From a virus: DNA of 29,587 bases. Location: IMG/VR virus record IMGVR_UViG_3300025086_000153, positions 1-29,587 of that record; one strand, written 5' to 3'. Every line of letters begins with the position of its first letter. Positions within the stretch are counted from its first letter, which is position 1. This document shows, piece by piece, positions 2,903 through 28,667 of this stretch. The notes below the pieces were generated by a model. That model saw nothing but the letters and a program-made list of their open reading frames with translations. It made no database searches and was not told the origin of the DNA. The translations under genes were made by a program, and so were the position numbers.

Positions 2903-3221
2903 TTTTAAAACTCTTCCAAGCTGAGTTCAGGATACGTCGAGAATCATAGAGGAACTTGGAACTGTTTCTTTCAGTTGGGTCTGTTCTGCAGAAGTGTATA
3001 CCTTCAACTAATCCACTGTCCCCTCCTGATGCAACACCTTGATGAATGAGTTTATCTAGAGTCACTGAAGGTACATTAAGTCTGTTGCAGATAGTTCTTT
3101 TACTAACAAACGCTGTGGTTTCCTGTTTGTCAGTCTGAGAAATACTTTGCAAAGAAGCATCAATACTCTCTAAAGTATATGAAATCTCTTTGAGTTGTTT
3201 TGTGAGTTGAGAAATGTCCAT
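2895..3221 (-). CDS. Coiled-coil protein with excisionase/MerR-like HTH
   Basis: This 108-residue protein has an N-terminal heptad region (about 3-33, ISQLTKQLKEISYTL) that could dimerise. A helix-turn-helix segment follows (about 40-60) with the pattern SKRTICNRLNVPSVTLDKLI. Then comes a wing-like stretch, with EGIHFC followed by a strand and a basic terminal helix (LYDSRRILNSAW). The arrangement of a recognition helix followed by 'EG-HF' and a basic helix is typical of excisionase and MerR-type winged-helix proteins in phages. It lies just downstream, in the leftward sense, of a 139-base palindrome-rich gap that is a natural target for autoregulation. There is no integrase in the window, so a regulatory role is more likely than excision. 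Confidence 0.65.
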   Translation of the reverse strand: MDISQLTKQLKEISYTLESIDASLQSISQTDKQETTAFVSKRTICNRLNVPSVTLDKLIHQGVASGGDSGLVEGIHFCRTDPTERNSSKFLYDSRRILNSAWKSFKNV

Positions 3222-11435: not shown

Positions 11436-13316
11436 ATGGTCCGCCGCCGCCCCTTAGTCACTGAAGATGGTTTAGTTTCCGAACTCCTCGCAGGAGATAC
11501 GGTACAAACCGGAGGGTCTTCTACTGAAGTTATCGCTGGAAGTGGTCTGGTCGGTGGTGGCGCTATCGGACCTGCTACTAGGCTCGATTTTGCGATAGCA
11601 GCAAACCCTAGTGGTGTTATTTACGCAGGAGACAGCATCGGTAATGACGGCGTTTCGTTTGTAAACGCTACAACCGCACTTAGTTCTGGTAATGCAGCTT
11701 TAACTGACTCAGTTGATGCTGTTGCCTCCGGTAACGCTGCGCTTTCTGTTGGAACAACAGCTCTCGCATCTGGTAATGCTGCTCTGGATTTACTCCCTAC
11801 GCTCGGGGGTGGGGCAAACACTACGATTATCGAAGCTTCAAGCTCTGTGGCATCAGGAATACCAGTCGGAGTTGACGATACGGGCCGAGTCCGATCTATT
11901 GAATCTTTTACGGCTAGTGTAACTCCTGCGTTTCAAACTGGAGGTAGTTGGACTACATATGCTTCTGCGAGCTACAGTGGTACTAATGCTTACCCTAAGC
12001 TAGTCTGTATAGCTGGTCAAGATACGTGGGTAATAATAGATCGTATGGACGGTAGTGCTTATATGCGGTATCAAGTTTATTCCTGGAACGGAAGCAGTAT
12101 AACTGCAGGAACTTTAACTACTGCAGTATCGTCAAATAGTCAGGACATTGCTCAAACGTACAACGAAGCCACTGATACTATCGTTCAAATCCACACTAAC
12201 TATGGTGGCGGTGATGCTACTAGGATGAGGACATGGTACTTAAGTGGCGGTACCTCCCTTGCTGCTGCGGATATATCTACTGTGTCTGCAGCTACTTATG
12301 CTCAAAGAAACTTTGTAATTTCGAATACTACTAATAATACAGGCATGATTGGGTACTCTATAGGTGCTGGAGCAGTTGTACTAAAACCATGGACTATTAC
12401 TGCAGGTACTCGACAAATAACCAAAGGCAACGGTAAATACAGTGCTTTCGCGGACTTCGGCGCTTCTAGAGGTTTTTACGCTGCTAATGTTGATCGATAT
12501 ATTATTTTATGTAATGAAGGTGCCCAGGTTACTGCACAGGCTTTTCAGATAACAGGTACTGGAGGAAGTGCATCCATTAATGATGGTACCGAAGTTGTAG
12601 TAGGTGCTACTGCCGGTTCAAGTTATAGAAACTTTTCTCTTATGAAAATAGGCGAGGACGGTGATCATGTAGCGCTATATAAAGATGCTTCGAATAATAT
12701 GATGGCACGTTATGGTACTTTGTCGGGCCTAACACTCACATACTCTGCTGCGCAGAATGTTATGAGTATGGGTACTGACATTTTTATGGATGTAGCTTGG
12801 TTTCCTTCTCAAAGGGCAGCTTTGCTGACAATTCAACAAGGCAATGATGCACAAACCTATAACTTGGTAGTTGACGGGTCTAATAATGTTTCTGCAACTG
12901 CAGGTGTTCTTTGTACCGCTGGAGGATACAACCTGCAAAACTTTGTAGCATCAATCAACACAGCAAACACTGTTGCTATAGGTGGCAACTACAACAACAC
13001 CAATCTTGGGGCGGCAGTCGTTAGTGCCGGTGCTATCGATGGAATTAATCCGACCCTTAACTCTCAAACTAACGTGTTGGGCGTGGCCGACTCTACCGTA
13101 GCTAGTGGTACTGATTGTACAGTGGTTCTACCTGGATCAGTATATAACGATTCTACTGCTCCTTACACGCCTGGAAAGTTTTACTACGCTGACCCCACCA
13201 CAAGCGGTTTGACTGAAACTTCAACAGCTCCTACTTCATGGTCTGGAGCAGTTCCTTGGAATTACCTGGGTAAAGCAGTAACTACAAGTGGTTTACTGCT
13301 GATCAACTCACTTTGA
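11436..13316 (+). CDS. Large tail fibre, paralogue 1 with diverged propeller-like centre
   Basis: 626 residues. The N-terminal ~65 (RRRPLVTEDGLVSELLAGD... AGSGLVGGGA... NPSGVIYAGDSIGNDG) are shared with the fibres at 13351 and 15616. They are followed by three SGNAAL stalk repeats (about 83-126). A half domain at 135-155 (SSSVASGIPVGVDDTGRV) is continued only near the C-terminus, at NVLGVADSTVASGTDCTV. The ~380 residues in between are beta repeats with a loose period and Tyr/Trp-rich strands, so they may also be a beta-propeller, but diverged. It probably forms a receptor-binding trimer. Confidence 0.75.
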   Translation: MVRRRPLVTEDGLVSELLAGDTVQTGGSSTEVIAGSGLVGGGAIGPATRLDFAIAANPSGVIYAGDSIGNDGVSFVNATTALSSGNAALTDSVDAVASGNAALSVGTTALASGNAALDLLPTLGGGANTTIIEASSSVASGIPVGVDDTGRVRSIESFTASVTPAFQTGGSWTTYASASYSGTNAYPKLVCIAGQDTWVIIDRMDGSAYMRYQVYSWNGSSITAGTLTTAVSSNSQDIAQTYNEATDTIVQIHTNYGGGDATRMRTWYLSGGTSLAAADISTVSAATYAQRNFVISNTTNNTGMIGYSIGAGAVVLKPWTITAGTRQITKGNGKYSAFADFGASRGFYAANVDRYIILCNEGAQVTAQAFQITGTGGSASINDGTEVVVGATAGSSYRNFSLMKIGEDGDHVALYKDASNNMMARYGTLSGLTLTYSAAQNVMSMGTDIFMDVAWFPSQRAALLTIQQGNDAQTYNLVVDGSNNVSATAGVLCTAGGYNLQNFVASINTANTVAIGGNYNNTNLGAAVVSAGAIDGINPTLNSQTNVLGVADSTVASGTDCTVVLPGSVYNDSTAPYTPGKFYYADPTTSGLTETSTAPTSWSGAVPWNYLGKAVTTSGLLLINSL

Positions 13317-13350
13317 CTCAGGCTAAAGTAGATTTAAAGGTCATCAAATT

Positions 13351-15201
13351 ATGGTAGCGCGGCGTCCTGTTGTTTCGATTAGCGGCCTTCGGACTGAGCT
13401 GCCTCCTGGTGACACGATCATTGGTGCATCACCAGGAACTTTAATCGCAGGTAGTGGTCTAGACGATATTGGAGGAGGGAATTTAGGTGAAGATGTTGAG
13501 ATTGATGTGTCGATCGCTCCGAATCCGAGCGGTCTGATCTTTGTCGGTAATAAGCTGGGTGACGACGGTGTAGCGCTACGTCTTGGAGAAGCTGCACTCG
13601 CAAGTGGAAACCAGGCTATCGGACTTGCTTCTACTGCTTTGGCAAGTGGTAATGCGTCTATTGCTCTTGCTCAAACTGCTTTAGCAAGTGGAAATGCTGC
13701 GCTTGAAGCAATCTCTGCTACACCGGGAGGTGTGGAGGGACAATTTACAGCCTCAAGCACTGTAGCTGTGGGTAATTCTGTTGGTTTAGATGATTTAGGT
13801 AAAGTTAGACCTATTACTACTGTTACTGATGGAGCTAATAGATCTTACGGAACACCAGTTGTTTTTGAAACTGCTAACTCTGAGTACATTTCCACTACCT
13901 ACGACTCTTCAAATGATCGAGTTGTTATAGCTTACGCAGACGACGGAAATTCAAATTACGGTACTGCAGTTGTCGGCACTGTTTCTGGTACATCTATTTC
14001 ATTTGGTACTCCAGTTGTTTTTGAATCTGCTGAAGTTAGATTTGTTTCAACAGTATATGACTCTACTAATAATAAAGTAGGTATTTTTTATAGACAGCAA
14101 AGCGCCCCTAATTATCCCGGCTTCGGGATTGTTGGCACTGTTTCCGGTACCTCTATTTCATTCGGTAGTGCAGTTATTTTTAGAAGCCAATATTGTGAAG
14201 AAATTTCAGCAGTATTTGACTCCACTAGTAACAAGGTGGTTGTTGCTTATTTGGATGGCAGTAACTCTGATTATGGAACAGCTGTCGTCGGCACTATTTC
14301 TGGAACATCTATTTCATTCGGTAGTGAAGTTGTTTTTGAATCAGCCGCTACTTATCAAATTAGTACTACCTACGACTCCACAATTGACCGAGTCGTAATA
14401 GCTTACAGAGATGCCGGAAATTCAAATTACGGTACTGCAGTTGTTGGTACTGTTTCTGGTACATCTATTTCATTCGGTACTCCAGTTGTTTATTTGAGTT
14501 CTCTAGTTTCATTTAATTCCGCTACCTACGATTCCAAAGAAGAGCGAGTCGTAATAGCTTACAGAGATGGCGGAAACTCAAATTACGGTACTGCAATCGT
14601 CGGTAGTGTTACTGGTACTTCTATATCGTTCGGTACTGCAGTTGTTTTTGAAACTGGTGTTACTAACTTTATTAGCGCTACTTACGACTCCACAAGCGAT
14701 AAAGTTGTTATAGCTTATGAAGACGGCTCAAACTCAAGTTATGGTACTGCGATTGTCGGTACTGTTTCTGGTACTACTATATCCTTCGGCACTGCAGTGG
14801 TTTTTGAAGCAGCTGATTCTGGCTACATATCCGCTACCTATGACTCTACAGACGATAGAGTTGTTATAGCTTACAGAGATGTCGGAAACGGAAATTACGG
14901 TACTGCTGTGGTGGGCTCCCCCGGCTCTTCAATTGTGCCCAAAGTTTCTTCTCTAAACAACTTTATCGGTGTCGCAAAAACTGTTGCCGCTAGTGGTTCT
15001 TCTGTGACCGTGGGACTTCCTGGTGCAGTACAGAACATTTACACTGGTTTGGTTGTTGGTTCTGGGTATTACGTTGATCCCACTTCTAGTGGTATTACAA
15101 CCTCTAGTACTGCTCCTGCAGATTGGTCAGGCGGAACAGCGTGGCAAACAATAGGAAGAGCGGTATCTTCTACTGAGTTGTACCTGACTGACAGCTTGTG
15201 A
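13351..15201 (+). CDS. Large tail fibre, paralogue 2 with seven-unit beta-propeller
   Basis: 616 residues. An N-terminal attachment block (1-75) is shared with two neighbours, followed by three to four LASGN repeats (82-120). A half decoration-type domain (132-156) precedes seven repeats of about 52 residues with the core YDSxxDRVVIAYxDxGNSxYGTAVVG and a GTSISFGT strand; the YDS positions are 184, 236, 289, 341, 393, 445 and 497. Residues 165-181 supply an extra strand pair and the last unit lacks it, as in a ring closed like a propeller. The second half of the decoration domain follows (about 535-600). It is likely a host-recognition fibre. Confidence 0.78.
   Translation: MVARRPVVSISGLRTELPPGDTIIGASPGTLIAGSGLDDIGGGNLGEDVEIDVSIAPNPSGLIFVGNKLGDDGVALRLGEAALASGNQAIGLASTALASGNASIALAQTALASGNAALEAISATPGGVEGQFTASSTVAVGNSVGLDDLGKVRPITTVTDGANRSYGTPVVFETANSEYISTTYDSSNDRVVIAYADDGNSNYGTAVVGTVSGTSISFGTPVVFESAEVRFVSTVYDSTNNKVGIFYRQQSAPNYPGFGIVGTVSGTSISFGSAVIFRSQYCEEISAVFDSTSNKVVVAYLDGSNSDYGTAVVGTISGTSISFGSEVVFESAATYQISTTYDSTIDRVVIAYRDAGNSNYGTAVVGTVSGTSISFGTPVVYLSSLVSFNSATYDSKEERVVIAYRDGGNSNYGTAIVGSVTGTSISFGTAVVFETGVTNFISATYDSTSDKVVIAYEDGSNSSYGTAIVGTVSGTTISFGTAVVFEAADSGYISATYDSTDDRVVIAYRDVGNGNYGTAVVGSPGSSIVPKVSSLNNFIGVAKTVAASGSSVTVGLPGAVQNIYTGLVVGSGYYVDPTSSGITTSSTAPADWSGGTAWQTIGRAVSSTELYLTDSL
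13843..14916 (+). repeat. Seven direct repeats of about 156 bases inside the fibre gene
   Basis: The units encode the propeller blades of the 13351 gene. Blocks such as GGTACTGTTTCTGGTAC and TACGACTCTAC recur in most units with few changes, and the same blocks recur in the 15616 gene. This gives DNA homology both within and between the genes, enough for slippage or gene conversion. Confidence 0.75.
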
Positions 15202-15233
15202 GTCTGTATAGTTGTTAAGTGAGTCTTATTTCC

Positions 15234-15578
15234 ATGAAAACAATCTGCCGACTGCCGGATTTTACAGACGGACCTAATGTCAGCCTCTACCTCTTTGAGG
15301 ACAGTAAACAGGTTCTTATTGAATCCGACAAAACCGTCATCGGCGATCCAAGCAAACCTGATGTCATCATCATGGATTGCAACTCAAGTAATGTAGTGCT
15401 TCACGAAGGCGTTACTGATCCGGACGACTGGTGTGGTTGGAAGTATTTTTACACAACTGACGACGGTTGGGTTTTGAATCCGAACTGGGTTGATCCTAAT
15501 CTTCCTGTTCCACCTAACCCACCTTTTGCAACAGACTCTGCAGATTCTGAATCAGGCGAATCGGGGCTTCCAGAGTAA
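15234..15578 (+). CDS. Small conserved-looking hypothetical protein between fibres
   Basis: 114 residues from the ATG at 15234 (MKTICRLPDFTDG); a GTG at 15219 would add five. It is compact and beta-rich: NVSLYLFEDSKQVLI, TVIGDPSKPDVIIMDCNSSN, VLHEGVTDPDDWCGWKYFY. It ends in a Pro/Asp/Ser-rich acidic tail (VPPNPPF... DSESGES). Proteins of this type occur between fibre genes of cyanophages, but I know no function. It might cap or chaperone the neighbouring fibres. The acidic tail would suit a soluble assembly factor. Confidence 0.65.
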   Translation: MKTICRLPDFTDGPNVSLYLFEDSKQVLIESDKTVIGDPSKPDVIIMDCNSSNVVLHEGVTDPDDWCGWKYFYTTDDGWVLNPNWVDPNLPVPPNPPFATDSADSESGESGLPE

Positions 15579-15615
15579 GTTTATCCGATAAAATAAAAGT
15601 AACTAGGTAGTATTA

Positions 15616-17457
15616 ATGGCTGAGAAACTCCCTCTTATTTACATAGACGGAGCGCTCAGCCAGCTGCCTCCGGGTGTTCAAATTGAAGGTGGTGCACTCG
15701 GAAACCTTATTCCGGGTAGTGGTTTAGTCGGCGGCGGAGACTTACAAACTGGAAATAAAAGGCTTGATGTTGCACTCGCCTCGAACCCTAGCGGCGTAAT
15801 TTTTGTTGGTGACACTATCGGCATGGATGGTGCTGATATTGTTGCTGCTGATGCTGCCTTATCTTCAGGTAATGCTGCCTTAGTTGATGCAGTTCCCGCT
15901 CTAGCCAGCGGTGTGGCAGGTTTAGCAGATGCGAATATCGCACTCGCCTCTGGTAATGCTGCTTTAACTGAAGCGGCAAATTTTGTAGGAAGTAGTTCTG
16001 TAATTCTTACTGCTTCTAGTGTTATTCAGGCAGGTAATCCTGTTGGTTTAGATGATGCAGGTAAAGTTCGTGCTATTACTCAAGTTACAAATGCAGATAG
16101 TAGAACTTATGGGCCACAAGTAGTTTTTGAGAATGCTGAATCTGGAGACTTTTCTGCAGCTTACGACTCTACTAATAATAAAGTTGTTGTATCTTACTAC
16201 GACGACGCAAACTCACGTTATGGCACTACCGTAGTTGGTACTGTATCTGGCTCATCTATTTCTTTTGGTACTCCAGTTGTTTTTCATTCTTCTGCTGTAT
16301 ACACTACTGGTTCTACTTACGATTCTTCAAATAATAGAATTGTCATAACTTTCACTGACAGTTCGAACTCAGAGCGAGGCAGTGTAGTAGTTGGTACTGT
16401 CTCAGGAACATCTATTTCGTTTGGTACTGCAGTTGTTTATAATAGTTCTGGTAGTACTTATAGTTCTTCTATTACCTACGACTCTACAAACAATAAGGTT
16501 GTCGTTGCTTACATAGACGGATCAAACTCAAGTCGCGGCACCGCAGTGGTTGGTACTGTCTCTGGTACATCTATTTCATTTGGTTCTGCAGTAGTTTTCG
16601 AAGTTGATGGTATTTCTTACCCCAACATCACCTACGATTCTTCAAACGAGAAAGTAGTGATTGCTTACAGGGACAGCGGAAACTCAAGTCGCGGCACCGC
16701 AGTGGTTGGTACTGTTTCGGGTACATCTATTTCGTTTGGTACTGCAGTTGTTTTTAATAGTTCTGGTAGTACTGGGTATGCTTACCCTTGTTTTGACTCT
16801 TCTAATGGTAAAGTCGTCATAGCTTACTCCGACGACAGTAACACCGGTTCTGCCATTGTAGGTACTGTTTCTGGAACATCTATTTCTTTTGGCACTGAAG
16901 TCGAATTTGACTCGAATTCCGTTAGTTATGTAGAAACCGCTTTTGATTCTACTAACAATAAAGTAATTGTTTCTTACAGGGCAAACTCAGGGTACCTTAC
17001 TGCGTTAGTTGGCACTGTTTCTGGTACTTCCATTGCATTTGGTTCTCCAGTTGTTGTGAATGCGGCAAGTACTTATTTTCCTTCCTCTGTTTACGACCCT
17101 ACAAACGATCGAGTAGTTATCTCTTACAGAGACGACGGAAACTCCCGATACGGTACTTCTCAAGTTGGCTCCCCTGGAGCATCTACGTTTCCGACATTAG
17201 GCGGTGTAAACAACTTTATCGGAACCGCTAGCTCCACCGTGGCAAGCGGAAATTCTGTGCAAGTTAACGCTCCGAAATCCATTAACTACAGTAACGCCGG
17301 TTTGTCTACGGGTTATTTCTATTATGTTGACCCTACTGTAAGTGGTTTCACTACCGCTTTAGGTCAACCTTCGAGTTGGACGCCAGGAGATTATTCTTGG
17401 GGTCCTGTAGCTAAAGCAGTTTCCTCCTCTGGTCTTCTTATTCTTGATACTATTTAA
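15616..17457 (+). CDS. Large tail fibre, paralogue 3 with seven-unit beta-propeller
   Basis: 613 residues with the same order as the 13351 fibre: an N-terminal block (1-72, PGSGLVGGGDL... NPSGVIFVGDTIG), SGNAAL stalk repeats (82-118), a half domain (130-153, ASSVIQAGNPVGLDDAGKV), then seven units with YDS/FDS at 183, 235, 288, 340, 393, 443 and 493. The remaining half domain follows (NNFIGTASSTVASGNSV to the end). The blade cores are nearly identical to those of the 13351 fibre, while the loops between strands differ. That is what one expects if the loops bind different receptors. It was probably duplicated within this lineage or exchanged with related phages. Confidence 0.78.
   Translation: MAEKLPLIYIDGALSQLPPGVQIEGGALGNLIPGSGLVGGGDLQTGNKRLDVALASNPSGVIFVGDTIGMDGADIVAADAALSSGNAALVDAVPALASGVAGLADANIALASGNAALTEAANFVGSSSVILTASSVIQAGNPVGLDDAGKVRAITQVTNADSRTYGPQVVFENAESGDFSAAYDSTNNKVVVSYYDDANSRYGTTVVGTVSGSSISFGTPVVFHSSAVYTTGSTYDSSNNRIVITFTDSSNSERGSVVVGTVSGTSISFGTAVVYNSSGSTYSSSITYDSTNNKVVVAYIDGSNSSRGTAVVGTVSGTSISFGSAVVFEVDGISYPNITYDSSNEKVVIAYRDSGNSSRGTAVVGTVSGTSISFGTAVVFNSSGSTGYAYPCFDSSNGKVVIAYSDDSNTGSAIVGTVSGTSISFGTEVEFDSNSVSYVETAFDSTNNKVIVSYRANSGYLTALVGTVSGTSIAFGSPVVVNAASTYFPSSVYDPTNDRVVISYRDDGNSRYGTSQVGSPGASTFPTLGGVNNFIGTASSTVASGNSVQVNAPKSINYSNAGLSTGYFYYVDPTVSGFTTALGQPSSWTPGDYSWGPVAKAVSSSGLLILDTI
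16105..17169 (+). repeat. Seven direct repeats of about 156 bases, second propeller
   Basis: Same type of unit as in 13843-14916. Neighbouring units share long runs around GGTACTGTTTCTGGTAC and ACATCTATTTC, and several match units of the other gene more closely than their own neighbours by eye. A dot plot would settle this. Confidence 0.75.
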
Positions 17458-17537: not shown

Positions 17538-17945
17538 ATGGTTGATTCCGAGCAGGAACTCATTTTATCTCTTGAGTGTTTATGCAAGAGTACTGCCCGA
17601 AAGAAATTTCGAAAGGACATAAAAGACAGTTGGAATAATAGATGCGCATACTGCGGAAGTGATGAGGCATATACCCTCGATCACATCGTGGCAAAGAGTA
17701 AAGGCGGTCCTACTCGGAGACACAACTTAGTTGCCTGCTGTGGACCTTGTAACCTCCGTAAGTCTGACGAGGACTGGTTTACTTGGTACAGACAGCAGAA
17801 ATTTTATTCCGGGGAATTTGAGCTTAAAATCTTTCAATGGCAGTATGCTGACCATGATCGATTTATCTCAGTCAAGGTTATAGGGGTGGTGTTCAGCCCA
17901 CCCCCTTCACCTTATAAAGCACTTACTGCTTCGACACTTTTGTGA
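17538..17945 (+). CDS. Free-standing HNH endonuclease
   Basis: 135 residues. It is a complete zinc-type HNH core: CAYC at 36-39, LDHI with D48-H49, KGG-T then HNL with N63, and CGPC at 68-71 followed by NLRKSDE. Such short HNH enzymes sit between structural genes of cyanophages and can act as homing nucleases that spread their own locus and nearby variants. All key residues are present, so it is probably active, unlike the His-Cys-box protein at 4000. The last ~20 residues (GVVFSPPPSPY...) are encoded by a hairpin and overlap a gene on the other strand by 23 bases, so the natural C-terminus may be a recent read-through. Start ATG 17538. Confidence 0.85.
   Translation: MVDSEQELILSLECLCKSTARKKFRKDIKDSWNNRCAYCGSDEAYTLDHIVAKSKGGPTRRHNLVACCGPCNLRKSDEDWFTWYRQQKFYSGEFELKIFQWQYADHDRFISVKVIGVVFSPPPSPYKALTASTLL
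17883..17904. terminator. Hairpin between convergent genes
   Basis: GGGGTGG (17883-17889) pairs perfectly with CCACCCC (17898-17904) around an eight-base loop. It sits at the meeting point of the rightward HNH gene and the leftward gene ending at 17923, inside the 3' end of the HNH frame. No T-run follows on either side, so terminator activity is uncertain. Confidence 0.45.
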
Positions 17946-21033: not shown

Positions 21034-22269
21034 GTGAAAATCTCTGACAACGGACTAGACATAATTAAGAAGTTTGAAGGGTTGAGACTTGAGAGCTATA
21101 TGTGCCCCAGTTCAGTCGCCACTGTGGGTTATGGGCATACTCATGGTGTCAAACTAGGCATGACTATTACTAAGGAGCAAGCAGATGAGTTCCTTAAGCA
21201 CGATGTAGAAAGTTTTGAGCAGTGTGTTTCAACATTCACAAACGTAAAAGTTAATCAAAACGAGTTCGATGCACTCGTATCCTTTGCTTTTAACGTAGGC
21301 TGTGGCGCATATAAAGACTCCACTCTTCGTCGTTTGTTGAACGAAGGACAAGATAAGAAAGTAGTTGCTGAGCAGTTCGGTCGATGGGTGAAGGGAGCCG
21401 ACGGGCAACCACTTCCTGGTTTAGTGACACGTCGTCAAGCTGAGAAAGATCTTTTTCTTGAAAAGATTAAACATCCGAAGTTGGGGCAGTCCATTTATGC
21501 CAAGCAAGATACGTATCTAAAGAAGAGAATGGCTGACTCTTCCTCTTTGCTACCCGAAGAGAAAGTCTTCGTACCTAAAGGATCTGCGTGGGAGTGGAAT
21601 GAGTTGACGATGTTTGCTGGTAAAACTCACCAACGAGTGCTTCTAACTGCTGACCAAAAGAATTGGTATATCTGGGGCGAACATTGGAAGGTGATTAATG
21701 ATGTTCCACCCGGTGCAGTCACACATAACAAGGGATCTGGTATAGATCTGGATGTTAAATACTATTCACAGCGAGATAATTACAGGGACTCTGATCGCAC
21801 CTGTTATTCTTCTTCTTGTGCGATGTTATTGAACTACTTAAAACCAGGAATAATTAGTAATGACGATGATTACATCAAAACTGTTTTCTCGATTGGAGAC
21901 ACTACAGAAGCGTGGGTGCAACTTAAAGCACTCTCTTCTTATGGAGTTGAAGCCGAGTTCAGGCAGGACATGGGTTGGGAGGATGTCGAGAACTTGCTGC
22001 GCAACTCTATTCCTTGCCCCCTTGGGATTCTGCATAGAGGCTTGTTGGATTCCCCCAGTGGAGGAGGGCACTGGATCCTTGCAAAAGGAATTAGCCCGGA
22101 CGGAAAGAATATTATCTGTCACGACCCATTCGGATCCCTCGATCTGGACACAGGGGTTTACCTTTCTGCGAATGGTGCCAACCAGCTGTACAACAAAGAA
22201 AAACTCGGAAAGAGATGGACTATTTCATCTGCCCATGACGGATGGGGCATTGTGGCAGAACACCCCTAG
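21034..22269 (+). CDS. Two-enzyme endolysin: GH24 muramidase plus C39-like peptidase
   Basis: 411 residues, GTG start. Residues 1-145 are a GH24 lysozyme with the catalytic set E15, C24 and T30, the E-x8-C-x5-T form of the T4-type E-D-T triad, and VGYGHT directly after. Residues 165-222 form an SH3-like linker (KVFVPKGSAWEW... WYIWGEHW). Residues 235-411 are a papain-like C39 domain: C257 in RTCYSSSCAML, H346 in GGGHWILAKG and D364 in CHDPFGS. It probably cuts the glycan strand with the first domain and a peptide link with the last, in the cyanobacterial wall. The Cys in both active sites is intact. Related fusions are known from cyanophages. Confidence 0.88.
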   Translation: MKISDNGLDIIKKFEGLRLESYMCPSSVATVGYGHTHGVKLGMTITKEQADEFLKHDVESFEQCVSTFTNVKVNQNEFDALVSFAFNVGCGAYKDSTLRRLLNEGQDKKVVAEQFGRWVKGADGQPLPGLVTRRQAEKDLFLEKIKHPKLGQSIYAKQDTYLKKRMADSSSLLPEEKVFVPKGSAWEWNELTMFAGKTHQRVLLTADQKNWYIWGEHWKVINDVPPGAVTHNKGSGIDLDVKYYSQRDNYRDSDRTCYSSSCAMLLNYLKPGIISNDDDYIKTVFSIGDTTEAWVQLKALSSYGVEAEFRQDMGWEDVENLLRNSIPCPLGILHRGLLDSPSGGGHWILAKGISPDGKNIICHDPFGSLDLDTGVYLSANGANQLYNKEKLGKRWTISSAHDGWGIVAEHP

Positions 22270-22757: not shown

Positions 22758-23279
22758 ATGGCTTATCTACAACGCCCAGGCGGGAACGGACCACTGCCAA
22801 AGATGACTCCTTTAGGAGGGATGGCAGCTGTAACTACACAGTTACCTCCTCCGCCTGCCATGTACCACTCTTCTAATACAGCCGTCACCGGCTTGCGAGG
22901 TTTGGACAACATTAATCGTGTTATTACTCAGTACGAGGTAGACACGGGAAAGTACCAGCGCCCAGCAGTAGGGACTACTAACTACCAGCTGGGCAACATT
23001 ATGCCAAGTCAAGAGCCCGTGGGCGTTGCAGGGTACAACCAAGCAGGCAAGATGATTATGCCTGGAAAAGCGGCTGACTTGAGTCACCAACAGTATCTGA
23101 TTGCAGAATCTAATAATTTGAATCCTGCTCTGCGTCAAGAGGTTGCTATGGCGACTTCTGTACCTCAGCAGAACTTCTTTAACGATCAGAATCCTTCTAC
23201 ATACCCACTGATTAACTACAACATGCCTGACAATCTCTACATGCCAGGCGTGGTTCCTGAGGAGAAAAAAGGTGAATAG
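22758..23279 (+). CDS. Hypothetical Pro/Asn/Gln-rich protein
   Basis: 173 residues. Low-complexity start (LQRPGGNGPLPKMTPLGGM, QLPPPPAM), then a region rich in Asn/Gln/Met/Tyr with NNLNPALRQEVAMAT and YNMPDNLYMPGV. There are no motifs and little predicted helix, so the protein is probably extended or disordered, as minor virion proteins often are. It begins eight bases after the previous stop. Its end overlaps the following small gene by eight bases. No family recognised. Confidence 0.6.
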   Translation: MAYLQRPGGNGPLPKMTPLGGMAAVTTQLPPPPAMYHSSNTAVTGLRGLDNINRVITQYEVDTGKYQRPAVGTTNYQLGNIMPSQEPVGVAGYNQAGKMIMPGKAADLSHQQYLIAESNNLNPALRQEVAMATSVPQQNFFNDQNPSTYPLINYNMPDNLYMPGVVPEEKKGE

Positions 23280-23430
23280 TCGTCTCCGCAGTGAGCAAAT
23301 GCCAGGTTCTGGCGTTCGCATGGCAGGTATGCAAATTGGGCTGGGACCTTCCGAAGTGATTCGAATGGTGAGCAACCCTTCTGAGATCACAAAAAGACTC
23401 CGATATCAAGAGGCGTTCCCCCGAACCTAG
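23272..23430 (+). CDS. 52-residue hypothetical protein, coupled to 22758 gene
   Basis: GTG 23272 to TAG 23430, with GGAG in GAGGAGAAAAAAG upstream as ribosome site. The sequence has VRMAGMQIGLGPSEVIRMV, followed by a basic helix and QEAFPRT. It starts eight bases inside the preceding gene. The amphipathic helices suggest a real but tiny protein; function unknown. Confidence 0.5.
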   Translation: MNSRLRSEQMPGSGVRMAGMQIGLGPSEVIRMVSNPSEITKRLRYQEAFPRT

Positions 23431-23459
23431 TATGCTGAGTGCCATTATCTTGGCGCTAA

Positions 23460-24149
23460 GTGCATACTGCTGAACTCGATTGGATCACTCCTCATGCAGA
23501 GGAAGTTATTGCTCGTCATGCAAGGGTGTCGACGAAAAACCCTGATCGAGCTGAGTTCAAAAAGCTAATTAGTTTTTGCATCAAGCACGGTCATTGGTCG
23601 GTGTTCGAGCAAGCCAGTGCGAGCTTCGAGATCTTGACCACCAGGGCGATCTCCCCACAGATCCTTCGTCACAAGACTGCGAATTTTCAGGAACTTTCTC
23701 AGCGGTACTCGAACCCGTGGGAAGTATTGGAAGAGTTGGAGATCGATGCGACTGACTTCTCGATGCGTCAGCAGGCAACCAACAATCGTCAAAGCAGTTC
23801 TGTTGAGATCCCATACGAGATTCAAACTCAGTTTCGTAAACAGATCCAACTGCTAGATAAAACTGCGCGAAACCTGTACGAAGATATGCTCGATGCAGGT
23901 GTTGCCCGTGAATGTGCTCGAAATATCCTCCCGCTCTACACGCCGAGCAGACTCCACATGGCTGCCCCCATTCGCACTTTTGTGCATTACGTTGGCTTGC
24001 GTGGCCAGGGTGATACTCAGCTGGAACATAGAAAAATTGCTCTTTCTATTGGGAGACAGCTACAAAAGCTCCTGCCGACAATTACAGAAGCGTTGACGGA
24101 AGTCGAGGACTCGGCTCTTTCAGGTTGGAAATCGCTTCGTACCCTCTGA
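23460..24149 (+). CDS. thyX: Flavin-dependent thymidylate synthase ThyX
   Basis: 229 residues, GTG start. ThyX makes dTMP from dUMP with methylenetetrahydrofolate, FAD and NADPH, and supplies thymidine for phage DNA. The N-terminus (EVIARHARVSTKNP, CIKHGHWSVFEQ) and the C-terminal block (ILPLYTPSRLHMAAPIRTFVHY, then LRGQGDTQLEH) are of the cyanophage ThyX type. The signature RHRx7S reads RHKTANFQELS, so its third residue is Lys, while the Ser and the FQE-SQRY part are kept. Lys is a mild change but touches the nucleotide-binding site. The last 20 codons (24090-24149) are repeated in altered form at 25210-25269, so the 3' end has probably taken part in a recombination. Confidence 0.9.
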   Translation: MHTAELDWITPHAEEVIARHARVSTKNPDRAEFKKLISFCIKHGHWSVFEQASASFEILTTRAISPQILRHKTANFQELSQRYSNPWEVLEELEIDATDFSMRQQATNNRQSSSVEIPYEIQTQFRKQIQLLDKTARNLYEDMLDAGVARECARNILPLYTPSRLHMAAPIRTFVHYVGLRGQGDTQLEHRKIALSIGRQLQKLLPTITEALTEVEDSALSGWKSLRTL

Positions 24150-24162
24150 CTCTCTAACTACT

Positions 24163-24414
24163 ATGAAAAATTTACTTTTCTTCCTTTTTGCTTTGTATGG
24201 TGTTGGTGTTTCTGTAATTTCAGCTTATGGTTTGTTTGCTCTAGACATGCCTGCTTTAGAGCAAGCAGTTGCAGTCAACGCTAAAGACGCTGAGATGCGT
24301 CATCGAATGAACGTTGCTGCTGAAGGCAACTGGATTTTGCTTGGCAATATTATTACCGTTGTGGCGCTATCGCAGATGTTGGGCCGCCACGGTAGTAGGG
24401 ATGGTCAGGATTAA
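24163..24414 (+). CDS. Small two-span membrane protein
   Basis: 83 residues. It has two predicted transmembrane helices (about 3-27, LLFFLFALYGVGVSVISAYG; about 54-74, NWILLGNIITVVALSQML) separated by an Ala/Glu-rich loop with HRMN. The first could be a signal anchor. The final 20 residues are basic (GRHGSRDG). It overlaps the convergent gene by 62 bases (24353-24414), a long antisense stretch. It lies between thyX and the recombination scar and may have arrived with that block. Function unknown. Confidence 0.6.
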   Translation: MKNLLFFLFALYGVGVSVISAYGLFALDMPALEQAVAVNAKDAEMRHRMNVAAEGNWILLGNIITVVALSQMLGRHGSRDGQD

Positions 24415-25180
24415 GTTCACCAATTACTTGCTCTCGACCACGGGGATACTTGTTGGCCCACCCAGAATCATCTAGTGCTCTGAATAAGATATTGCCTACT
24501 GACTCCGCTGCTTTAGGTACATCTCTTCTTGCCAAATTATCCATCAATTGTCCTTGATGGTAACCGTCACCTCGGGTGTCATACAACTCATTTACTGTGA
24601 CCTTATTGTCGTAGCCGGGAATACCTACAAACTGTCCAACAATTCCAGCGCCTTCTATGTTGCTAGGGAATCTAGTCTCTTCGTAGTTTGGCTCTCCTAG
24701 CCCGTGGTACAACTTGCCATCTCTAACTGAAGCACCATCAATTTGTCTTTGAAGTTGCTCTGCTGTTCCTGGGCTTCTGAGTATTCTAAAATTTGTACCA
24801 AACGGACCTGCTGCATACTTAGCTGCAGTCAGCAATGCTTCCATTGTTGGATTTATTGTGGGAACTGGGAATGCACCTTTATCAGGAATTTCATTTATGT
24901 AAGTTGATATAGGACTATTTGCATCTGCATCTGTCCATCTCTCGCTAGCTCGTACATATCTAGTAGGCGCGGGCTCAGACGGTTGTGGAGTCTCAGGAAC
25001 TCCATAAGGTAGTCTCCCTCCTACTGCACTATCTAGAGTGTTATAACCTTCATTTAGTCTGCCATAAACATGAGACCCTACGTCATTAGCTGTCTTGATC
25101 AAATCAGTTGCTACTTTAAGTAGGTCAGGATTTAAATTATCAGGCAGTTTTACTAGACCTGCCAAGCGAGCGAATGGCAT
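24353..25180 (-). CDS. Hypothetical protein with duplicated start at 25354
   Basis: 275 residues, ATG at 25180. The N-terminus RLAGLVKLPDNLNPDLLKVA is followed by a Pro-rich linker (PETPQPSEPAPTRY) and an ordered C-terminal half with GKLYHGLGEPNYEE, GQFVGIPGYDNKVTVNELYD and ELNPDHPYYRGG. There is no family I recognise and no enzyme motif. The length and the Pro linker would suit a virion protein. A short leftward frame at 25354-25205 starts with a similar segment (AGGVKLPDKMDPRLLKAAEE), so the beginning of this gene exists twice. Confidence 0.65.
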   Translation of the reverse strand: MPFARLAGLVKLPDNLNPDLLKVATDLIKTANDVGSHVYGRLNEGYNTLDSAVGGRLPYGVPETPQPSEPAPTRYVRASERWTDADANSPISTYINEIPDKGAFPVPTINPTMEALLTAAKYAAGPFGTNFRILRSPGTAEQLQRQIDGASVRDGKLYHGLGEPNYEETRFPSNIEGAGIVGQFVGIPGYDNKVTVNELYDTRGDGYHQGQLMDNLARRDVPKAAESVGNILFRALDDSGWANKYPRGREQVIGELNPDHPYYRGGPTSAIAPQR

Positions 25181-25204
25181 CAGTTTGTATTAGTTACTCA
25201 AAGT

Positions 25205-25354
25205 CTAGAGCGTGGACGGAAGTCGAGGACTCGGCCCTGTCCGGCTGGCGATCCCTTCGTACACTGTGACGTTGGGACTACTAGGTATAGCTTCCTCGGC
25301 TGCTTTGAGTAACCGAGGATCCATTTTGTCGGGGAGCTTAACTCCACCTGCCAT
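25205..25354 (-). pseudogene. Truncated second copy of the 24353-25180 gene start
   Basis: A 49-codon leftward frame. Its first ~23 codons (MAGGVKLPDKMDPRLLKAAE and EAI) align with residues 6-28 of the 275-residue neighbour at around half identity. The remaining codons read antisense to the duplicated thyX tail and have no counterpart. This is a fusion of a broken gene head with unrelated sequence, a scar rather than a working gene, although it keeps an ATG. Confidence 0.6.
25210..25269 (+). pseudogene. Duplicated 3' end of thyX
   Basis: Twenty codons including the stop align without gaps to the end of thyX (24090-24149). The peptide is 17 of 19 identical (TEVEDSALSGW then RSLRTL, against KSLRTL). 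At the DNA level 50 of 60 bases match, with most changes at third positions. The two copies have thus evolved under selection in separate genomes before being brought together. No thyX sequence precedes the fragment, so it cannot be translated as ThyX. Confidence 0.8.
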
Positions 25355-25378
25355 TCGGATTCTGATCATTCAATAAGT

Positions 25379-25951
25379 CTATAACCCAGGAGCTACTCCG
25401 TTCCAAGGGTCGGGCTTTTCAAGTTCTGTCGGTTTTGATTGCATTGCAGCCGCTGCTTGCTGAGCCTGAATCATTTGGATCGCTCTTTTGTGCTGATCCA
25501 AGTCTTGCTGCAGTTGTTTGGTTTGTGCTTGGGCCCAGTTTGATGCGTTTTTAGAAAGATCGTCTAAGGCATTTTGAGCGTGGGGAAAGTTGAACACCAC
25601 TCCAACTCCCTGTTTAGTAGCGATTTTTTGTCCGTTTGACTCTTCAGCAATGACGTTTAAAAAATCGTGAGCATGGTTAAGAGGACAGTTAGCCAAGAAG
25701 GAAAGCTCAACCGGATCTACTAGCCCTCGGTTTTTGTCGTAGAGAGTGGCGAAGGTTACTCCTACTCTCTCAGCTTCCTTATCCGTTTTTTCCTTCTTGA
25801 CAGATCGTTGCTCTTGGAGAGAAGCACCCCCAAGTAGTCCTCCCATAAACGCGAGAGAGGCTCCGGTATAAACAGGATTAACCATGGTGGTGGCAACTCC
25901 GATTGCACCTCCGATGATTAGAGCTACGTCAACTGCTTTGAACTGAATCAT
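25379..25951 (-). CDS. Membrane-anchored winged-helix-like protein
   Basis: 190 residues from the ATG at 25951 (MIQFKAVDVALIIGG); a start at 26029 would extend 26 residues into the primase gene and is unlikely. Two hydrophobic helices (about 8-26 and 31-47, MVNPVYTGASLAFMGGLLGG) form a hairpin anchor. A Lys/Glu-rich linker follows, then a compact domain: ATLYDKNRGLVDPVELSFLA, HAHDFLNVIAEESNGQK and GVGVVFNF, a winged-helix-like order. A Gln-rich helix (QTKQLQQDLDQHKRAIQMIQ) and a Pro tail end it. It overlaps the primase-helicase stop by 23 bases and so is co-translated. It may tether replication DNA to the membrane. Confidence 0.6.
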   Translation of the reverse strand: MIQFKAVDVALIIGGAIGVATTMVNPVYTGASLAFMGGLLGGASLQEQRSVKKEKTDKEAERVGVTFATLYDKNRGLVDPVELSFLANCPLNHAHDFLNVIAEESNGQKIATKQGVGVVFNFPHAQNALDDLSKNASNWAQAQTKQLQQDLDQHKRAIQMIQAQQAAAAMQSKPTELEKPDPWNGVAPGL

Positions 25952-28667
25952 GCTTTTTAAATGCTTTGTCCCACTTGTTGAAATCAGGGTCTTCCGCAAA
26001 CTCGACAGGCGTGGGAAGCCGTGTGTCACCTACAGAAGCTCGATCGGATGTTACGTCATACTTTTTGAGTCGTAAACCTTGGACGGCAAAGCCTCCATTC
26101 TTCTGCACTATATTGCCACAAGCTGGGAGTTTAAGGATATTTTGCAAAGTCTCCTTTATACGTCCCGTAAAGTTTGGCTTATTGCAAGGTCTGTATTGAC
26201 ATGCACGTGAGTACTGCACGTAGCTTGCATATAGTTCACTGTATGCATCTTTGACGATTAGTCCTCTCTCCTGCTCGTCTGCTGAAGCTTTGAAAGCACC
26301 TTTACCAATCGGAGTGGTTGTATTGGGGGAGTAGAGACAACACTCATCAAGCCACGACACGTAAGGGTTGTTGATCTTCAGTGCTTCGAGGTTACTGACA
26401 GCGAGCGAAGGCACATGCTTAACGGGATTCGAAAGCACATCGCGCATTTTGTCAAAACTCATCGACAATGCCCACGCCACGATGCCGCTCATCTCAGGCA
26501 CAAAAGCACCCTCAATACGATCTTCGTAGACATCTAGAAGCTGGCGTCTGCTGCTCGCAGGGACTACTTTGTCCATAACGATGGTCAAGCGACGACGTTC
26601 AAGTCCAGAGCTGGAGTCGTTAGAAGAGATGTGCTCGTTAGATGCAATACACACCAACAGTTCAGGTTTAAAGCTGATGGTTTCTTTGCCGTACTTGCGC
26701 TCAGCACGAAGGGTGTCAGACGCCGAAGTAAGTTTCTTTAGAACGTCCATACGTTTGTTGTAGTTGGACTCGTCAGTGAGCAGGAGCAGTTTCTTTCCCA
26801 TCAAGTTGTACGTTTCGAACTTGTTGGTTTCGATAATCTCCAAGGACGACGTGTGGGTGGAAGTAAAGCCAGCAAGCGCAATCATCAATTGCTGCATCGT
26901 TGACTTACCAGTACCACCAGGACCAACTAAGTGCAGGAAACGTTCGCCGGAAGTGTATCCAGTCAGCAGTGCACGAGCGTAAGCCTGAATCAATACAGAC
27001 TGCTTTTTCCGCAGAGAAGTCTCAAGCCAGTTAAGAAACTGAGGGCAAGTAGCCTGAGCGTCATAGTCAAACCCTAGTTTTGCCCGGATAAACAAGTCTT
27101 TATGAAGTCCCTCCTGGAACTTCATTGCTTTGGTGTCATAGACACCGTTCTTGAAAGGGATATAACCTTGAGCTGTGCTCCAGATGGACTTACGTCCGTT
27201 GTCTAGAGACTTCAAGAACTTGCCTTTAAGGATTTTAAAAATCGAGTCAATAGTGGTAGCAGTGTATTTGGCAATCAGAGTCGCTTTGACAAAGGTATCC
27301 AGAGCAGAACAGATCTTCTGTTTGATGTGCTGCTCATCCATGGAGTACCACACACCCATCTCTTCGTCATAGGTGTAGAAGCGGTCTTGGACACTGTCAT
27401 ACACAAAGTTATGACCAAAGGTGTTGCTGATTGCATTGGCTACATCGTTCTCAGCAAATGCTGCTTTGTCGCCACCTGCGTCCGGTAGGTCGATCTTCTG
27501 GGTGGGTTCTTTGATGCTTGTCATAGGTTTTGATGTGTTCTCTAGGACGTAGTCGTCTAGAGAGAGGATGTTGTTAGAAGGCCCAGGTCGCCTTTCGGCG
27601 AGTTTTTGCTGGTCTTCTTTAGGAGCAAGCTTCTCGAACAGAGCGTGGTCGAGGAGAGCTACCTTTTTCCAGCAAGCTACGACTCCCAACTCGGAAGCCA
27701 AGGAGATCGCTGGTAGAAGGTCGGGTGCGTTTCGAATCGAATCGAGGATCCGACGAAACTTACCGTCGAGGTCGTGTGGGTAGCTGTAGATATTGTAAAA
27801 CGCTTCTTGCGCAACTGTCAACCCAGATACACTGCTTGACAAACTATGCTTATCAAGCCAGTTGCACCAACCTATGAGTTCCTTGAACACGTTGGCCATG
27901 GTGGCGCTACGGTCGTCGACCTCGTTTCCTTCAAGGACGTTTCTCACTAACTGAGAGCAGAGCTTCGTTAGATCGAGACCGTCAGGGCTGGTGTTGTTTC
28001 TAGAAAGAATTGTGTGACCGTCACTATCGTCTTCCTGTTCCTCTTCTTGTGCTGTAGCAGCGTACTTTTTGTAAGCCTCGTCGATGACAGCAGAGGGTAT
28101 GAATTTATCTGTGACTGTTAGGATCCCTTCAACGCCGTGGGCTCCGTAGAACAAGTGAGGAACTGAAAAAGCTCTGAAGTCCGATCCAGGAATTTGCTTA
28201 CCAATTGTTTTTGAGAACCACTGGTAGAACTTGGGGTCTCGGATTTGTTTTTCTAAACCGAAGACGAGTCTAAATCTCGGCCAGTTTTCTGTACCAGAAG
28301 GTGAGTCATAAGCAAAGCTGAGATACTTTTGACATATAGGTAAATCGAGAGCTTCAGCATATGTAAGTTCTTGCTGCTGAATTTTCTCACCATTAGGTCC
28401 TTTTTTATCTGCCTGATTATCGATGTCAACGATAATAAGACCGGCTTGTATTAGCCCTGTGTTCTTTGACTCTCTCTTACCATCTAGTAATTGCCACGCA
28501 CAAAGACCAGATTTAAGTGCAACGTATTCAGATATCTCATGCGAGTCTATTTCTGAAGCTTTCCAGTTTTCGTTGAAAGCCTGGAAATTACCACCCTGAA
28601 GAATCTTGCCTGTCTCATTGTCGACATACTTTGCGACTACAGTGTTGATGGAGCATGAGAATTTCAT
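25929..28667 (-). CDS. Primase-helicase, D5/SF3 type with AEP-like N-terminus
   Basis: 912 residues, ATG at 28667. An archaeo-eukaryotic-primase-like N-terminus carries the metal motif IIVDID (D81, D83) and a later RFRLVF strand. A linker and D5_N region (VYDSVQDRFYTYDEEMGVWY, then YIPFKNGVYD) lead to an SF3 helicase. Walker A GPGGTGKST lies near residue 583, Walker B is KLLLLTDES, and the sensor part is ELLVCIASNEH. A wHTH-like end closes it. It would make primers and unwind DNA at the fork, the core of the phage replisome. It is transcribed leftward with the exonuclease upstream and a promoter candidate at 28689-28717. Confidence 0.88.
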   Translation of the reverse strand: MKFSCSINTVVAKYVDNETGKILQGGNFQAFNENWKASEIDSHEISEYVALKSGLCAWQLLDGKRESKNTGLIQAGLIIVDIDNQADKKGPNGEKIQQQELTYAEALDLPICQKYLSFAYDSPSGTENWPRFRLVFGLEKQIRDPKFYQWFSKTIGKQIPGSDFRAFSVPHLFYGAHGVEGILTVTDKFIPSAVIDEAYKKYAATAQEEEQEDDSDGHTILSRNNTSPDGLDLTKLCSQLVRNVLEGNEVDDRSATMANVFKELIGWCNWLDKHSLSSSVSGLTVAQEAFYNIYSYPHDLDGKFRRILDSIRNAPDLLPAISLASELGVVACWKKVALLDHALFEKLAPKEDQQKLAERRPGPSNNILSLDDYVLENTSKPMTSIKEPTQKIDLPDAGGDKAAFAENDVANAISNTFGHNFVYDSVQDRFYTYDEEMGVWYSMDEQHIKQKICSALDTFVKATLIAKYTATTIDSIFKILKGKFLKSLDNGRKSIWSTAQGYIPFKNGVYDTKAMKFQEGLHKDLFIRAKLGFDYDAQATCPQFLNWLETSLRKKQSVLIQAYARALLTGYTSGERFLHLVGPGGTGKSTMQQLMIALAGFTSTHTSSLEIIETNKFETYNLMGKKLLLLTDESNYNKRMDVLKKLTSASDTLRAERKYGKETISFKPELLVCIASNEHISSNDSSSGLERRRLTIVMDKVVPASSRRQLLDVYEDRIEGAFVPEMSGIVAWALSMSFDKMRDVLSNPVKHVPSLAVSNLEALKINNPYVSWLDECCLYSPNTTTPIGKGAFKASADEQERGLIVKDAYSELYASYVQYSRACQYRPCNKPNFTGRIKETLQNILKLPACGNIVQKNGGFAVQGLRLKKYDVTSDRASVGDTRLPTPVEFAEDPDFNKWDKAFKKHDSVQSS

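Follow-up and report, generated by a model that had tools for sequence, protein, structure and literature searches.

Why the 3′ end of thyX occurs twice within a short distance is the question raised by the stretch of viral DNA analyzed here in its full length of 29,587 nucleotides (hereafter the window). The gene itself (23460..24149, plus strand) encodes an intact flavin-dependent thymidylate synthase of 229 aa, as indicated by Pfam (Thy1, E 4e-37) and by its identity to relatives, which amounts to 97% for contig L003, 89-90% for L005, and 77% for L006. The repeat search and the comparison of the tails revealed a direct repeat with 1120 positions from start to start, the first copy of which (W1, 24089..24149, plus strand) is the 3′ end used by thyX, while the second (W2, 25209..25269, minus strand) is thyX-tail sequence that now forms the 3′ end of a small gene, h (25205..25369, minus strand, 54 aa). 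Over the final 20 thyX codons (24090-24149 and 25210-25269), 50 of 60 bases and 17 of 19 residues are identical, exactly as the initial annotation had reported, and the cross-match between the two copies has an E of 6e-12. The repeat starts no more than 1-4 bp from the end of h, whose stop codon (25205-25207) adjoins the first base of W2; on the basis of the sequence and the repeat, this point (25205..25209) is presumed to be an illegitimate joint. An assembly artifact is countered by contig L001, which may stem from a related sample and has the same arrangement; over 7973 bp it agrees with the window in all but five single bases, none of them from 22871 to 25721.

The thyX query led to two informative sister lineages, L003/L004 and L005, and in all three contigs the 1.06-kb block that separates the two copies in the window (24150..25208) is absent. 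Instead, they possess a single thyX tail with a complete convergent h directly behind thyX, and they are the relatives that the initial annotation had predicted, namely phages in which a full thyX is joined to the context of the second tail without the block. In L003 and L005, h encodes 55 aa, one codon more than in the window, and its last 68 bp overlap thyX tail-to-tail. Judged against these phages, the thyX-tail DNA inside h is the normal thyX/h overlap, present twice in the window, where each gene retains its own 3′ end, thyX via W1 and h via W2. Comparison with L003 and L005 also indicates that h is under purifying selection: codons 1-33 of the window and L005 differ by 7 synonymous and 0 non-synonymous changes (neutral P 3e-5), and L003 and L005 by approximately 10.5 synonymous to 2.5 non-synonymous changes (neutral P 6e-5). 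Because of this selection, and because the compact thyX/h arrangement is standard in the sister phages, h is best described as an intact conserved gene, not a collapsed remnant. No match was found for its product in a protein search of annotated phages, and in IMG/VR it was found only in the twin of the window, the genome of L005, and L003/L004.

These results bear on the history first proposed for the locus, in which a foreign block composed of thyX and the two genes of the insert (mem and H) was imported beside the resident copy, after which the middle of the resident was deleted and a scar was left. Such a history agrees with a foreign block and with diverged tails. However, the supposed collapsed version is the normal state of two sister lineages with an intact, selected h, and the existence of block-free relatives makes any deletion in the lineage of the window unnecessary, so that import followed by deletion appears quite improbable. 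A much older collapse, with h as a shortened H, is possible if it predated both L003/L004/L005 and the window phages. An apparent scar or pseudogene can thus be an intact small overlapping gene.

The inserted block, defined by its absence from L003, L004, and L005, carries two genes. The first, mem (24163..24414, plus strand), is an ORF for a putative membrane protein of 83 aa, whose N-terminal part is hydrophobic as judged by eye and which matches L039:1269-1526 at 36%; the second, H (24353..25180, minus strand), is an ORF of 275 aa that matches a protein of 223 aa (L039:1462-2133) at 28-29% (E 4e-11). Both genes are convergent, and their 3′ ends overlap tail-to-tail by 62 bp. Their homologues are adjacent in the genome of L005 (L039:1269-2133), at 57.3-58.2 kb of a 61.7-kb contig and far from thyX, with the same convergent layout and an overlap of 65 bp. 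Since the homologues sit together with the same layout elsewhere in that genome, the comparison supports a role of mem/H as a portable two-gene unit, for which only two loci are known. The second pair occupies a convergent junction with a methyltransferase gene nearby, and no convincing similarity to the thyX tail or to h was detected around it. The search of the junctions of other related contigs did not find mem/H next to thyX, and in IMG/VR both genes were found only in the twin of the window and in the genome of L005. The products of mem, H, and h had no match in Pfam, PHROG, or family libraries, nor did protein searches with H and p216, the ORF that faces thyX, or a DNA search with 23300-25500, yield any match among annotated phages; one scan of bacterial genomes for H was also negative, and an AlphaFold model of H built from two sequences reached a pLDDT of 31, with no usable fold. 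The base composition of the block is ordinary (43.7% G+C, rank 153 of 571 windows), promoter-like sites in its region are at chance level, and of four terminator-like sites, against 1.4 expected, none is convincingly placed. A transposon or site-specific integrative element was rejected on the grounds that mem, H, and h match no Pfam or PHROG family and that no inverted repeat brackets the block.

The first 34 codons of H (25079..25180, minus strand) are homologous to the first 34 of h, as supported by a protein match and shuffles: the ORF at 25205-25369 aligns with residues 5-34 of the 275-aa protein, with 15 of 30 residues identical and no gaps (E 1e-7), and none of 2000 shuffles equaled this match. 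The copy of the start of H that had been described behind the second tail is therefore real as protein homology over the first 34 residues but loose as DNA, 39 of 87 bases being different. The ungapped likeness stops at residue 34, the codon overlapping the thyX stop, and the homologue of H in L005 (223 aa) lacks these 34 N-terminal residues. In addition, the W1 side retains ACTACTA, a 7-base match to h that is in register and falls after the thyX stop and before the start of mem. Given that the N-terminus of H resembles h only to residue 34, and that the L039 homologue is without it, mem/H may have entered h, with H becoming fused to its first codons. The divergence between the N-terminus of H and h is saturated (dS of approximately 2) and exceeds that between W1 and W2.

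Comparison of the two tails with the block-free relatives, available at approximately 4% and 17% thyX divergence, points to a different history for the inserted segment. As sisters, the window and L003 have a thyX body dS of 0.16, L005 being outside (0.94-1.0; 0.94 for the window and L005), whereas W1 and W2 differ by a dS of 0.78, a rough value based on 19 codons that comes near the distance of L005 and is of the size seen for thyX genes of separate phages. The tails are consequently more diverged from each other than the lineage of the window is from its sister, and with this rough dS estimate they would come either from different lineages or from an old duplication. Between the window and L003, identity is about 96% in the thyX body to approximately 24109 and only about 78% in the tail. 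Because the L003 tail is separated from each of the window tails by 13-14 of 60 bases, against only 26 of 629 in the left flank and 3 of 91 in the right, import by recombination is supported, and the segment from approximately 24110 to approximately 25265 seems to have a history other than that of its flanks. The import of a foreign block beside a resident thyX, as claimed in the initial annotation, is in this respect supported by the comparison of the tails with the thyX bodies, and the doubling would fit either two parents or a duplication that took place long ago in the lineage of the donor.

A young local tandem duplication can be rejected, the tail dS being far above the value for the window and L003 bodies. 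An older one, in which the thyX-tail/h unit (approximately 190 bp) was duplicated locally and mem/H subsequently entered the first h copy without any second parent, would have to have been kept in an unsampled lineage, and the even greater divergence of h from the N-terminus of H also argues against it. In its favor, W1 and W2 agree at 24110, 24113, and 24144 in alleles found in neither L003 nor L005, and with 10 differences, against 11-14 for the other tail pairs, they are marginally closest to each other, although the pairwise distances of the 60-bp tails (10-14 differences) form nearly a star. When the changes are polarized by L003 and L005, all three clear private changes of W1 are at third positions, compared with one of four in W2; because three of the four private W2 changes are not at thyX third positions, W2 looks free of ThyX constraint, which would also suit a local duplication. 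We regard this history as unlikely. The earlier claim that a local duplication is the less likely origin consequently holds for a recent event, while an old one in an unsampled lineage may have occurred, and the argument from third-position differences that the tails diverged in two genomes fits the changes of W1 but is weakened by those of W2 and by the near-star distances.

The distribution of tail alleles in the relatives could also be read in the reverse direction, with the state of the window as ancestral and the block lost from L003 and L005 by recombination between the tails. L003 resembles W1 to the left of 24131 and W2 to the right of 24134; at the few diagnostic tail sites, it is like W1 at 5/6 on the left and like W2 at 3/3 on the right, and L005 at 4/6 and 3/3, respectively. 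These sites would suggest a switch at approximately 24132 of the kind that the single copy of mycobacteriophage Brujita shows with respect to the repeats of Island3 (PMC3029335), where the left part matches one repeat and the right part the other, the corresponding sites in L003/L005 being few. However, with L003 as the sister of the window and L005 outside, the block would have to have been deleted twice at an identical breakpoint, and mem/H lies beside thyX in no other related contig searched, making this direction highly improbable.

The reading that we consider fairly probable is the insertion of a gene cassette into a hotspot flanked by thyX and p216, which face each other, by way of a donor fusion, an illegitimate joint, and homologous recombination. 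The right-hand gene, p216 (25379..26029, minus strand), is a 216-aa ORF conserved in relatives that faces thyX across the hotspot, with the start of h lying shortly past the stop codon of p216. The first step would have taken place in a donor lineage, where mem/H entered h just behind the thyX stop, H being fused in frame to the first 34 h codons; a single illegitimate joint at 25208/25209 would then have set the block ahead of a second thyX-tail/h unit; and the segment would have reached an L003-like backbone by ordinary homologous recombination within the conserved flanks, thyX on one side and h on the other. The doubled piece may have survived as approximately the least sequence that keeps thyX and h both whole, and with the product each of the two facing gene sets would gain one gene at its end. 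Annotated phages, IMG/VR, and one scan of bacterial genomes yielded no donor in which thyX-mem-H occurs without a second tail. Against the first step, the saturated divergence of H and h would require fast change after the fusion or an ancient split. The change of L003 from W1-like to W2-like sites also speaks for this reading but involves few sites. The breakpoints are placed by few sites, and whether the window or L003 changed at the junction is inferred by parsimony only. If correctly reconstructed, the window offers a well-preserved example of how a phage adds genes at a convergent junction without breaking their neighbors.

The gap behind thyX is, as indicated by comparison among related contigs, a hotspot of turnover, and the window shows this quickly changing locus in one of its states. 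Across about 40 thyX-family contigs, the thyX-p216 gap ranges from -1 to 2647 bp, with differing small genes in those inspected, providing a series of junctions with differing cargo for comparison. L082 and L083 (82-85% identity) differ by 1.1 kb; the left boundary falls a single base short of where the homologous stretch of the thyX ORF ends in L082. L119 and L138, approximately 99% identical, differ in the gap by several hundred bases. Among 17 other thyX junctions checked, none had a tail repeat, except for a 16-bp inverted match in two. A different insert (L003:5784-6142), with a 96-aa ORF that had no match in family libraries, was observed between h and p216 in L003/L004 and not in the window or L005. 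In L087, L100, L104, L108, and L115, small opposite-strand ORFs behind thyX run 12-85 bp into its 3′ end, and antisense overlap at the end of thyX may recur with unrelated genes. Elsewhere in the family, an in-frame intein that carries an HNH endonuclease (Pfam Intein_splicing and HNH; L119:2645-4456, also L126, L138, and perhaps L139) splits thyX behind residue 78-79, and the thyX of L138 lacks 98 bp and looks broken. A homing enzyme of this kind inside thyX could promote recombination at the adjoining hotspot.

We read the window as a clear case of the gene exchange usual among phages at variable sites, one for which a close parallel has been published. In mycobacteriophage cluster I, the insertion of Island3 gene 68 is accompanied by a repeat of approximately 60 bp of the 3′ end of its neighbor, of which the relative Brujita has a single recombinant copy (PMC3029335, section 13, Fig. 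5C). As in that case, a close relative lacks the insert at the corresponding position and the repeat is the 3′ end of the upstream gene, covering 19 C-terminal residues compared with 18 in Island3/Brujita. Unlike it, the second copy in the window supplies, on the other strand, the 3′ end of a gene that is convergent and overlapping, and the insert is a convergent pair, of which H appears fused to the N-terminus of the overlapping h. These two features, the opposite-strand use of W2 as the end of h and a cassette gene that seems to have taken the N-terminus of h, are what is distinctive here. Phage morons, described in PMC3029335 as segments present in one genome and missing between the same two genes in relatives, resemble the block in its absence between adjacent genes of the related L003/L004/L005; however, the two convergent genes of the window extend both flanking gene sets, with no promoter or terminator flanks shown. 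For T4-like cyanophages, PMC3037559 (citing Millard 2009) describes a hypervariable region and mobile gene cassettes; variable accessory genes between conserved ones and a cassette at different loci in different genomes are likewise found here, but in another phage group, at the convergent thyX/p216 junction, and with cargo that has no family match. More generally, phages might repeatedly use the doubling of an antisense overlap to open up convergent genes that are fused at their ends, with cassettes kept only if each facing gene obtains its own copy of the shared 3′ end and with tail-to-tail overlaps providing ready-made homology for capturing cassettes and fusing genes in frame, a generalization to which we give little credence.

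Other features of the window lie to the left of thyX. Three successive ORFs of 613-626 aa (11436-17457), with similar N-termini, many internal cross-matches, and no Pfam family, are possibly repeated genes of tail fiber type, and behind these three tandem ORFs is the ORF of a free-standing HNH endonuclease (17538-17945; Pfam HNH, E 8e-10). An endolysin of 411 aa, in which a phage lysozyme domain is fused to a C39-like peptidase domain, is encoded at 21034-22269. Regarding L003, both ends of its 81.6-kb contig match the window around 3088-3191, and because of this the contig looks circular or terminally redundant and is perhaps a complete genome.
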